Assembly: GCF_003173355.1 (NCBI RefSeq)
Contig: NZ_QGMY01000017.1
Span: 1 to 64,000, forward strand
DNA length: 64,000 nucleotides
Reading direction: 5' to 3'
From: Methanospirillum lacunae
GTDB taxonomy: Archaea > Halobacteriota > Methanomicrobia > Methanomicrobiales > Methanospirillaceae
Below are positions 39,370 through 42,994 of this stretch, piece after piece (position 1 is the first letter of the stretch; each line of letters begins with the position of its first letter). A program made the position numbers and the translations under genes. The notes under the pieces were generated by a model. It saw nothing but the letters and a program-made list of their open reading frames with translations, was not told the origin of the DNA and searched no databases.

Positions 39370-39400
39370 GAACCTTTTTTTGGTTCATTAATCTTTTTTA
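39370..39400 (+). terminator. Terminator of the frh operon
   Basis: Directly after the frhB stop, GAACC and GGTTC flank seven T residues (39370-39386), followed by a CTTTTTTA run at 39392-39400. Archaeal termination needs mainly the T-tracts, both of which are present. Confidence 0.5.
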
Positions 39401-40612
39401 TAATCTAGTTCTACTGAAATCTCATATTTAACTGCTTTGGTCACTGCCTGGTTTTTATTGTTGAAATCCAACTTTGCCAATAATAAAATAAAATGTAATT
39501 AGTGATGTTTGAATTGTCCAAAATGTGAAGCATATCTCAACAAAATTCACCAAAAATAGCGTTATCGAATTTGACTGTTATGATTATTCGTGAATGAGGA
39601 ATAACAAAAAAGTTCATTCATTCCAATTTTGATGCCATCATCATAGTTATTTTTGGACATAGTGGTGGTTACGTTAAGTTTTGAGGGAAACTTCAACTGT
39701 CAAATACAGTTTCCTAATGAAATTCGGGAAAATTAGATCGTAATAGTGGATGAACTCATTAATCTCAAAAGTCAAAGTGGCAAAGTAAGGTTGAAACGAT
39801 GCTAATTAATTACATAACAATCAATTAAACTATATAGTGATATACATAAGAAACAGATTGCACAAAGGAGACTGTTTTTCCTAATCATGCAGATTTTTTT
39901 CCAAAACAAACATCATGGAATTCGGTTGCCATATGGCTTCATTTAATTCATGTTTTTACTCCAACCGGGGAATGTGAGTTCCATCACTTTCAAGACAAAA
40001 CTTACGACGATTAGTTTGATATCTTTCTTAGAAAACAAGATGTCGATGCAATACTGTTAGAATTCCTCGGGAAGATAACAGAAAAAGAAGAATATTTTGA
40101 AGTATTGACAAAGAAACAAGATATGATTCAGGTCAACAAAGTTCAGGATCTATTGATGCGTAAATACTTGAGAAAAATTGTCATTAATTTCATCGGGCAT
40201 TACTCATTTAGGGTTCGAATTTGAACTTAAAATCTTTATATTTTCAATAAATCCGGATTAATCTAAATTTAATACCATAATCAGGATAAAAGGACAACTA
40301 CAGTGATTCTTAGCATGATTTTACTCCAGAGGACAGCTAAAAACCCCACATTTTTTTCATTGGGCAATGTAACCTCAATGGTGAGTTATTTTTTCTCTTC
40401 GGTGAAAACAATCCTCTATCGTATGAAAGGCCACCATTGAATTTGAGTAAACCTATGATTACTATCCTTCATACAACTGTTTATAGGTAATCTTTAACGT
40501 CCTTATCAAGATACATACCGAATGGCCTAAAGACACCTATAAAACGTAAAAGAATATAACAAAGAACAAAATTTTATAAAAGATCGAAAAAAAGGAATAT
40601 GCATTTATTCAA
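39401..40612. other. Gene desert with decayed reading frames
   Basis: About 1.2 kb, AT-rich, with no intact gene. Three segments still read like protein. One at about 39610-39805 has a frameshift after HSGGYVKF, continuing EGNFNCQIQFPNEIREN, then a stop, then DELINLKSQSGKVRLKR. One is listed separately at 39850-40224. One at 40341-40490 has 49 open codons without a start, with CNLNGELFFLFGENNPLSYE. None was recognised as a known family. They look like remnants of lost genes. Confidence 0.45.
39850..40224 (+). pseudogene. Degenerate protein-coding remnant with internal TAG
   Basis: An open frame of 124 codons interrupted once, by TAG at 40012-40014. Before it are the segments WNSVAIWLHLIHVFTPTGE and CEFHHFQDKTYDD; after it are FDIFLRKQDVDAILLEFLGK, ITEKEEYFEVLTKKQDMIQ and LLMRKYLRKIVINFIGHYSF. 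No good start codon is present. The residue composition downstream is protein-like (helical, charged). Stop read-through is unlikely, since no pyrrolysine system is expected in this order. A decayed gene is the simplest reading. Confidence 0.35.
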
Positions 40613-40843
40613 TTAAGCGAAAGTTGAGTTAAATGGTGAACTCGTTTCCTGCATGCTCTTGACATCACTTGAGTTGAACTTTGCTGTTTCCTGCATGCTC
40701 TTAACATCACTTGAGTTGAACTTCTGTGTTTCCTGCATGCTCTTAGGCCAAAGAACATCATCATCAGCACATGCAATTCCCACAATACTCAGTATAAGGG
40801 CGAAAATTACACCTGAAACCAATACCATACTCGTACGCTTCAT
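40613..40843 (-). CDS. Small secreted protein with tandem 14-residue repeats and N-glycosylation sequons
   Basis: A 76-residue product from ATG 40843 (GAGG 8 bases upstream); the frame runs on to 40897, but the added 18 residues are not signal-like. Residues 1-26 are a signal peptide (MKRTSMVLVSGVIFALILSI, ending IACA). The mature part starts DDDVLWP and then repeats KSMQET(Q/A)KFNSSDV twice, ending KSMQETSSPFNSTFA. Each unit contains an N-S-S or N-S-T sequon, so a mature peptide of about 50 residues would carry three potential N-glycans. It is not a known family. The neighbours on the same strand are two secreted paralogs. Confidence 0.65.
   Translation of the reverse strand: MKRTSMVLVSGVIFALILSIVGIACADDDVLWPKSMQETQKFNSSDVKSMQETAKFNSSDVKSMQETSSPFNSTFA
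40646..40745. repeat. 42-bp tandem DNA repeat inside the small secreted protein gene
   Basis: Units begin TTTCCTGCATGCTCTT at 40646, 40688 and 40730 (plus-strand reading), exactly 42 bases apart. The first two are nearly identical over the whole unit; the third is partial. The in-frame period (14 codons) means unit number can change by slippage without breaking the frame. Confidence 0.9.
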
Positions 40844-40914
40844 ATCAGGATTCCTCACATTATGTTGATGGATATCGTATTTAATCTTACTATCCATTAT
40901 GGAGAAATATTCGT

Positions 40915-41041: not shown

Positions 41042-41887
41042 TCAGACTTTAAATCCTGATTGATAAGTAAATGCTTTCTGGAAATTCTTTATTCCACCAG
41101 TTGCAGTCGTGGAATCTTTCCATGTGTTGGTAACAGATGTCTTGTTCCAGGTTGCAGATGCTGAATTATAATTACTATCACCACCATCACGGGCTTCCAT
41201 AATGCTTCCAGCAAAGACAGTTTTCACTGTTCCTTCAGCATATCCACTTCCCGAGTTAGAATCAGGAGTGACTGCAATCTGGTAGTTCAGACCAGCAGGC
41301 ACACCAGCATCAGAAGCAACCGCTCTTATCTGACCTTTACTTGAGATTTGAGCACTATTTACATTGATAAGGCTGCTCTTTGCTGACACTATATTGCAGA
41401 AGGCCGGAAGAGCATTATTTGCACTGTTTGAAAAGACACACCTAATGTTTCCGTCACCAGAAGCATAATTGCCTGCTACAGAGAGGGTGTACTCTTCCTC
41501 ACCAACAAGATGTGCACCTTCAGTACTGGCATAGGTCAAAACCTTCTGGGATTCAAGATTGTATAGCCCACTCGACTGATCCTTAGAACTAAAATCAAAG
41601 TTCTTGTTCATACTGAGTTTACCACCATTTGTCATGATAGAATCACGATATGTGATGTCTGCAATCGATTGAGAAGCACCAAGAATACCAGTAGGAATTG
41701 CTCCTGGTGAGGCAATAACCCAGGACAACATAGTATTATCAGAAACAAAACCTGTGACATCAATTACAGTATCAATTGAAAAAACCTGATTTTCCGGTGT
41801 CTGATTGGGAAGCCTATCACCAGCGACCTGACCTATAACAGCCACAAAAATCACCAAGCCAGCATATAACATAACTCTATAATTCAC
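41042..41887 (-). CDS. Secreted protein, paralog of the gene at 42091-42930
   Basis: A 281-residue protein starting at GTG 41887 (GGGGT about 7 bases upstream) or at ATG codon 6. A signal peptide ends at about residue 23 (VAGDRLPNQ). It shares an estimated three quarters or more of its residues with its neighbour, including PENQVFSIDTVID, LTYASTEGAHLVGEEEYTLS, GTVKTVFAGSIMEARD and the shared last residues FTYQSGFKV. Two cysteines (NIRCVFS, LPAFCNIV) are conserved and may form a disulfide. The codons are more AT-rich than in the paralog, suggesting weaker expression. A secreted structural or surface protein is likely; no family was recognised. Confidence 0.8.
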   Translation of the reverse strand: MNYRVMLYAGLVIFVAVIGQVAGDRLPNQTPENQVFSIDTVIDVTGFVSDNTMLSWVIASPGAIPTGILGASQSIADITYRDSIMTNGGKLSMNKNFDFSSKDQSSGLYNLESQKVLTYASTEGAHLVGEEEYTLSVAGNYASGDGNIRCVFSNSANNALPAFCNIVSAKSSLINVNSAQISSKGQIRAVASDAGVPAGLNYQIAVTPDSNSGSGYAEGTVKTVFAGSIMEARDGGDSNYNSASATWNKTSVTNTWKDSTTATGGIKNFQKAFTYQSGFKV

Positions 41888-42090: not shown

Positions 42091-42930
42091 TTATACCTTG
42101 AATCCGGACTGGTAGGTAAAGGCCTTCTGCAGGGTCTTTATGCCGCCGGTGACTTCGGTGTTGTCTTTCCAGCTGTTGGTTGCAGAGGTCTTGTTCCAGG
42201 TTGCTCCTGCTCCATTGTCGTAGTTACTGTCACGGGCTTCCATGATGCTGCCTGCGAATACAGTCTTGACAGTACCCTCTGCAAAGCCGCTGCCGGAGTT
42301 TGCATCAGGAGTAACTGCAATCTGGTAGTTCAGACCTGCTGGAACATCAGCGGTGTCTGCAGTTGCACGGATCTGTCCCTTGGTGGAGACCTGTGCACTG
42401 TTAACATTTACAAGACTGCTCTTTGCAGAGACAATGTTGCAGAATGCTGGGAGCATTGAACCATTAAGGGTTGAGAACACACAGCGGATGTTGTTGTCTG
42501 CGCTTGCAAAGTTACCTGCAACAGACAGAGTGTACTCTTCCTCGCCGACAAGGTGTGCACCTTCGGTGCTGGCGTAGGTCAGAACCTTCTGGGACTCAAT
42601 GTTGTAGAGGCCGCTGCTCTGGCTCTTTGAGTTGAAATCAAAGTTCTTGTTCTCAGCGAGCTTTCCACCGTTGGTGAGGATTGCATCCTTGTAGGTAACG
42701 TCAGAGATTGTCTGGCCTGCTCCAAGGATTCCGGTTGGAATCTTACCTGGATTTGCAATTACCCAGGACATGGTGGACTTGTCGTCGACTGCACCAGTTG
42801 CGTCGATGACGGTGTCAATTGAAAAAACCTGATTCTCTGGGGTTGCGTTGGGCAGACGGTCTGCTGCTGCAAACCCGGTAACTGCCACAAGGGCAACCAG
42901 TGCAACAATTGCTGCAAATACGAACTTCAT
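42091..42930 (-). CDS. Secreted protein, probably abundant at the cell surface
   Basis: A 279-residue protein with a standard signal peptide (MKFVFAAIVALVALVAVTGF, cleaved near AAADRLPN). The mature protein is beta-rich, with many Ser, Thr, Asn and Ala residues and two conserved cysteines. Several N-x-S/T sequons are present (PNATPE, TLNGSM, TWNKTS). The ribosome site AGGAGGAAATAA directly before ATG is the strongest in the window after frhG. Codon choice is strongly biased to C/G third positions, like frh, so high expression is likely. A tandem paralog lies downstream with its own promoter and terminator. It may be a sheath, plug or S-layer component; I could not match it to a named family. 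Confidence 0.82.
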   Translation of the reverse strand: MKFVFAAIVALVALVAVTGFAAADRLPNATPENQVFSIDTVIDATGAVDDKSTMSWVIANPGKIPTGILGAGQTISDVTYKDAILTNGGKLAENKNFDFNSKSQSSGLYNIESQKVLTYASTEGAHLVGEEEYTLSVAGNFASADNNIRCVFSTLNGSMLPAFCNIVSAKSSLVNVNSAQVSTKGQIRATADTADVPAGLNYQIAVTPDANSGSGFAEGTVKTVFAGSIMEARDSNYDNGAGATWNKTSATNSWKDNTEVTGGIKTLQKAFTYQSGFKV

Positions 42931-42949
42931 TTATTTCCTCCTACATTTC

Positions 42950-42968
42950 ATGCTGATACTCTCAGCAT
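42950..42968 (-). promoter_or_regulatory. Leader stem-loop of the proximal secreted paralog
   Basis: ATGCTGA and TCAGCAT flank five bases, a perfect 7-bp stem. It lies between the predicted start (near 42975) and the ribosome site at 42934-42944. Confidence 0.55.
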
Positions 42969-42994
42969 CAACATAGACACGTTGTCGGTAACGA

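Follow-up and report, generated by a model that had tools for sequence, protein, structure and literature searches.

We analyzed a 64,000-nucleotide stretch of the Methanospirillum lacunae genome (the window) and found in it a small gene composed largely of tandem repeats. Specifically, a 76-codon open reading frame on the minus strand at 40613–40843, with its ATG at 40843 and its stop codon at 40613–40615, encodes the product MKRTSMVLVSGVIFALILSIVGIACADDDVLWPKSMQETQKFNSSDVKSMQETAKFNSSDVKSMQETSSPFNSTFA. Its designation as a gene draws on the frame and its translation, on orthologs in the genus, and on pN/pS values below 0.3 against those orthologs. Residues 1–26 (40766–40843, minus strand) form a predicted signal peptide cleaved between GIACA and DDD; we called this boundary by eye from conservation, as a hydrophobic N-terminus ending in A, with DD after the cut, is common to all members of the family. 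The initial annotation had described the product as secreted, and the signal peptide supports that description. The mature chain of approximately 50 residues consists of DDDVLWP followed by three minus-strand units: KSMQETQKFNSSDV (unit 1, 40703–40744), KSMQETAKFNSSDV (unit 2, 40661–40702), and KSMQETSSPFNSTFA (40616–40660), a degenerate terminal unit that retains the sequon NST. The protein therefore comprises two full 14-residue units and one degenerate unit, together carrying three sequons (NSS, NSS, and NST). In the DNA, Tandem Repeats Finder reports a 42-bp array at 40644–40745 (2.4 copies, 95% match), the sole array in the 64-kb window.

The sequences preceding the gene are conserved as well. 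A Shine-Dalgarno-like GAGG lies 9 nt before the ATG (40853–40856, minus strand) and is found near the start in nine of nine complete copies aligned, and a putative TATA-like element, TTAAATA, lies approximately 40 nt upstream (40878–40884, minus strand), with motif and distance alike in the same nine copies. An alternative in-frame ATG at 40897 would yield a 94-residue reading. Because the orthologs share the MKR...SMV start and the GAGG 9 nt upstream of it, ATG 40843 is the likely start. An opposite-strand ORF at 40653–40868 was also considered as a gene and rejected, since, family-wide, the five frames other than the coding frame have stops and higher pN/pS. Between frhB and the repeat gene (39370–40609) lie approximately 1.2 kb with no ORF of at least 50 residues; the equivalent region in genome G007 is shorter, and blastn similarity between the two is confined to the first 100 bases. 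We searched 39370–40609 for remnants of a sheath gene or of aglB and found none.

The sequons of the window protein are not accounted for by chance. At least three sequons arise in 1.5% of shuffles of the 50-residue mature chain, and sequon density is approximately 6 per 100 residues in the mature protein versus 0.55 per 100 residues in the long ORFs of the window. The initial annotation further anticipated that a chain so decorated would be mostly sugar by bulk. An archaeal N-glycan is approximately 1 kDa, and three of them on a chain of approximately 5.5 kDa would amount to roughly a third by mass; that estimate is thus not supported.

The repeat gene was found in all seven Methanospirillum genomes with a completeness of at least 90%: G000 (the window genome, 3.74 Mb in 25 contigs), G001, G003 (M. 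hungatei JF-1), G007, G008 (the M. hungatei metagenome-assembled genome M59), G009 (M. stamsii Pt1), and G010. Among the fragmentary genomes of the genus, G002 carries the gene, G005 carries a terminal fragment, and none was found in G004, G006, or G011. Searches of 199 genomes of the order, 393 genomes of the phylum, and IMG/VR returned no convincing relative outside Methanospirillum, including no viral relative in IMG/VR, and a scan of GTDB contigs with the repeat protein matched Methanospirillum only. Weak matches in other genera (G179 and G037) were judged to be chance, as no F-N-x-S/T repeat ORF was seen there. Within the databases covered, the family thus appears restricted to Methanospirillum. 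Pfam and NCBIfam gave nothing above cut-off for the window protein. Matches of its relatives to motilin/ghrelin and zinc-finger models span 10 residues each and were taken as spurious, and marginal phmmer matches to coronavirus spike coiled coils among PDB sequences (E of 0.007 and worse) were judged to be chance. Text searches of the literature returned no paper describing the protein. We found no described family to which it belongs; the kind it would represent, a secreted surface protein with a variable number of repeats, is already known.

Members share a signature, which the window protein fits: a signal peptide ending in A before DD, followed by units of the form [KAS]-F-N-x-S-[EDM]-[IV]-x-[ST]-[MT]-x-x-x-x (a peptide such as FNSSEIGTMQNSQK is expected from the M. 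hungatei JF-1 proteins). One sequon per repeat, as initially proposed, holds in 108 of 108 full units family-wide, a count that overstates the independent evidence because units inside one gene are homogenized. Across these units F2, N3, and S5 are invariant, and position 4 is S in 105, T in two, and G in one, so the motif is FNSS, rarely FNTS or FNGS. The third sequon position is Ser in every full unit, never Thr, and for that reason structural constraint could also explain the F-N-x-S motif. The b-type repeat genes carry an additional NST or NSS directly after the array. The N- and C-terminal tails are conserved among members, and no complete member, on inspection, shows a PGF motif or the C-terminal hydrophobic stretch of a PGF-CTERM anchor.

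Unit number, which the initial annotation had proposed to compare across strains, differs from 2 to 20. The window member, with two full units, is the shortest found, and its relatives have 7 to 20: 8 in G007 and 10 in G002, the syntenic orthologs, 7 in M59b, and, for pairs of genes, 13 and 8 in JF-1, 20 and 10 in G001, and 11 and 9 in M. stamsii.

Comparison of the copies indicates coding constraint. For orthologous arrays, pN/pS is 0.18 between the window and G002, 0.25 between the window and G007, and 0.09 between G002 and G007. It is 0.16–0.35 among the remaining same-type pairs and higher between types (0.40 for JF-1 a versus b; 0.56 for G007 versus JF-1a). When all repeat genes are pooled in six frames, with the proviso that units homogenized within each gene are not independent counts, the coding frame has the lowest pN/pS (0.43) and alone lacks stops. 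The antisense frame at offset 1 is near to it (0.52) and is interrupted by stops in 9 of 98 units. By this measure, the repeat protein is shown to be under purifying selection. Frame disruption in close strains, named at the outset as the finding that would speak against the gene, was not encountered; in each complete relative, the ORF is unbroken. Together, the low pN/pS, the intact frames, and the upstream TTAAATA/GAGG arrangement favor a functional protein.

The two genes preceding the repeat gene belong, by alignment with the JF-1 protein Mhun_2271 and by gene position, to the MspA/SH sheath family. The first (42091–42930, minus strand, 279 residues) is the positional ortholog of JF-1 mspA, lying beside the same methyltransferase gene and lacking the cap domain of approximately 100 residues. 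The second (41042–41887, minus strand, 281 residues) is a paralog that aligns with MspA and is 79% identical to the first; it too lacks the cap. We identify both as MspA family members because their position is conserved and because the JF-1 counterpart, a 377-residue protein, carries the published MspA/SH residues D43, T86, S144, N157, C271, and K363 (PMC6242892, PMC10593813). The family occupies 19 places in the window genome, and M. lacunae is reported to have the most sheath homologs (PMC6242892). Both neighbors being sheath proteins, the envelope context proposed initially is borne out. The accompanying claim of two secreted paralogs nearby stands in part: these are paralogs of each other and not of the repeat protein. 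With the JF-1 MspA cap as query, we found no match in the window genome and weak matches only in M59 and G006; across Methanospirillum, the cap is hypervariable or absent.

Upstream of the mspA-position gene lies an invariant 35-nt leader, TTGATGCTGAGAGTATCAGCATGAAATGTAGGAGG (42937–42971, minus strand), whose hairpin, TGCTGA-GAGTA-TCAGCA, precedes the Shine-Dalgarno sequence and folds at −10.6 kcal/mol. It is identical at 35 of 35 positions, present once per genome, and always before the mspA-position gene in eight genomes (the window genome, G001, G002, G003, G007, G008, G009, and G010); allowing three mismatches, it was not found at other sheath paralogs. The leader possibly belongs to a very highly expressed gene and serves in its regulation or in the stability of its mRNA.

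Gene order differs across the genus. In the window genome, G007, and G002, which form one clade, the order is methyltransferase, sheath, sheath, and repeat gene, the last directly downstream of the sheath genes. In JF-1, M. stamsii, G001, and G010, the order is methyltransferase, mspA, AglB/STT3, and sheath paralog, and in M59 mspA, AglB/STT3, and a sheath paralog occupy one contig. AglB thus lies between mspA and the second sheath gene in five genomes (L033, L073, L074, L075, and L076). The JF-1 copy (L033 2219–4741) contains STT3, AglB_core, and AglB_L1 domains. The copies in the other four are 36–55% identical to it, versus 66–75% for the adjoining mspA; AglB at this locus has therefore been replaced or is fast-evolving. 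The window genome has three STT3 genes above the Pfam cut-off. The repeat genes of JF-1, M. stamsii, and G001 lie away from the mspA locus; there they are paired in tandem behind a TRM5/TYW2-like gene, as they also are in M59, judging from its fragments. A TPR protein follows the pair where the contig extends that far (JF-1, G001, and M59). The JF-1 pair occupies 3489356–3490671 of the 3,544,738-bp chromosome. Because adjacency of repeat and sheath genes is the property of one clade, the link of the repeat protein to the sheath is only suggestive.

What might such a protein do? M. hungatei shows cell-surface glycoprotein staining, and unassigned densities link its S-layer and sheath (PMC11641113). 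Counting against an envelope role for the repeat protein, the proteins reported from JF-1 sheath preparations, in the accessible text of the two papers, are MspA (PMC6242892) and S-layer paralogs (PMC11641113). The notion is that the repeat protein would be exported via Sec and its signal peptide removed, that each 14-residue unit would expose the Asn of F-N-x-S for N-glycosylation by AglB, that unit number would set the length of the sugar-decorated chain, and that the chain would be built into the sheath/S-layer envelope as a structural spacer or as part of its coat. From the sequences, we infer export, glycosylation, envelope location, and the spacer or coat role: sequons lie on a chain with predicted export, the genome encodes STT3, and association with the sheath or S-layer is plausible. 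On balance, we favor an envelope protein that is exported, probably carries an N-glycan at each F-N-x-S, and would function as a coat or spacer whose length can be adjusted. We put forward more tentatively a genus-specific "glycan comb" in which each unit of the secreted protein would bear exactly one N-glycan and unit number would tune the length and sugar load of a layer lying between the S-layer and the amyloid sheath, or else those of the end plugs. The linker, plug, or signaling-peptide roles offered initially are guesses.

A different possibility, which we regard as rather unlikely, casts the units as β-strands. Stacking or co-assembling with the sheath, they would serve as a minor amyloid or as a seeding subunit; F-N-S-S would be a structural ladder, and glycosylation would be absent or incidental. 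The Methanospirillum sheath is itself amyloid-like (PMC6242892, PMC10593813), and the invariance of F, N, and the second S would suit a ladder. AlphaFold, with six related rows in each run, predicts a β-rich M. stamsii member (mean pLDDT 75, pTM 0.65), in which, along much of the array, each 14-residue unit contributes one strand of 10–11 residues; however, two of its five models are poor, and the G002-type protein L029, the relative closest to the window protein, is predicted to be disordered (pLDDT 50, pTM 0.12). Repeat arrays are, moreover, prone to invented solenoids in structure prediction. A Foldseek comparison of the M. stamsii model with PDB folds returned nothing with E below 0.6, and the window copy would supply just two full units to such a stack.

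That same shortness, set against the 8 and 10 units of the syntenic copies, and the altered terminal unit could instead mark the window gene as what is left of a longer gene now in decay, no longer relevant in this species. We consider this improbable: the frame, signal peptide, upstream elements, and sequons are intact, even the degenerate unit keeps its sequon, and pN/pS against orthologs is 0.18–0.25. The window copy is better described, from these comparisons, as a contracted yet still constrained member of its family. A signal peptide followed by near-identical tandem units would also befit a precursor from which small secreted peptides are released, whether signals, pheromones, or bacteriocin-like, with one product per unit. 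No obvious processing site separates the units, though, and no peptidase, transporter, or receptor gene was recognized adjacent. Furthermore, the N- and C-terminal tails are conserved, so a single intact chain fits better, and we hold a peptide precursor to be very improbable.

A small secreted repeat family universal to the genus, and within the sheath locus in one clade, represents a concrete candidate for a missing envelope part. Its single sequon per unit would also make it a simple natural substrate on which to examine AglB with a repeated acceptor.

Known systems offer partial parallels. MspA/SH (Mhun_2271, WP_011449234.1) is likewise a secreted Methanospirillum envelope protein, and its family adjoins the repeat gene in the window clade, but it has imperfect repeats of approximately 80 residues, a β-arch fold, and no N-x-S/T sequon in JF-1. 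The JF-1 protein (L033 4901–6034) lacks sequons despite its adjacent AglB gene; the window sheath paralogs have two and three. In a sheath-protein search of the window genome, 40613–40843 was absent among the matches listed, and the repeat protein is unrelated in sequence to MspA/SH. Fam_103_42_3, an M. hungatei 42-bp satellite family catalogued, in the accessible part of that report, as DNA satellites only, shares repeat length and species with the repeat-gene arrays and is possibly the same DNA (PMC6749651). Curli CsgA resembles the repeat protein in having short repeats, in being secreted, and in the proximity of an amyloid system; its unit is approximately 19 residues versus 14, and no csg-like partners were seen. 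Finally, eukaryotic mucin-like or VNTR surface glycoproteins likewise present tandem units in variable number, with a glycosylation site in every one. Mucins are O-glycosylated and far longer, and we know of no homology between them and the repeat protein; the resemblance is in how they work.
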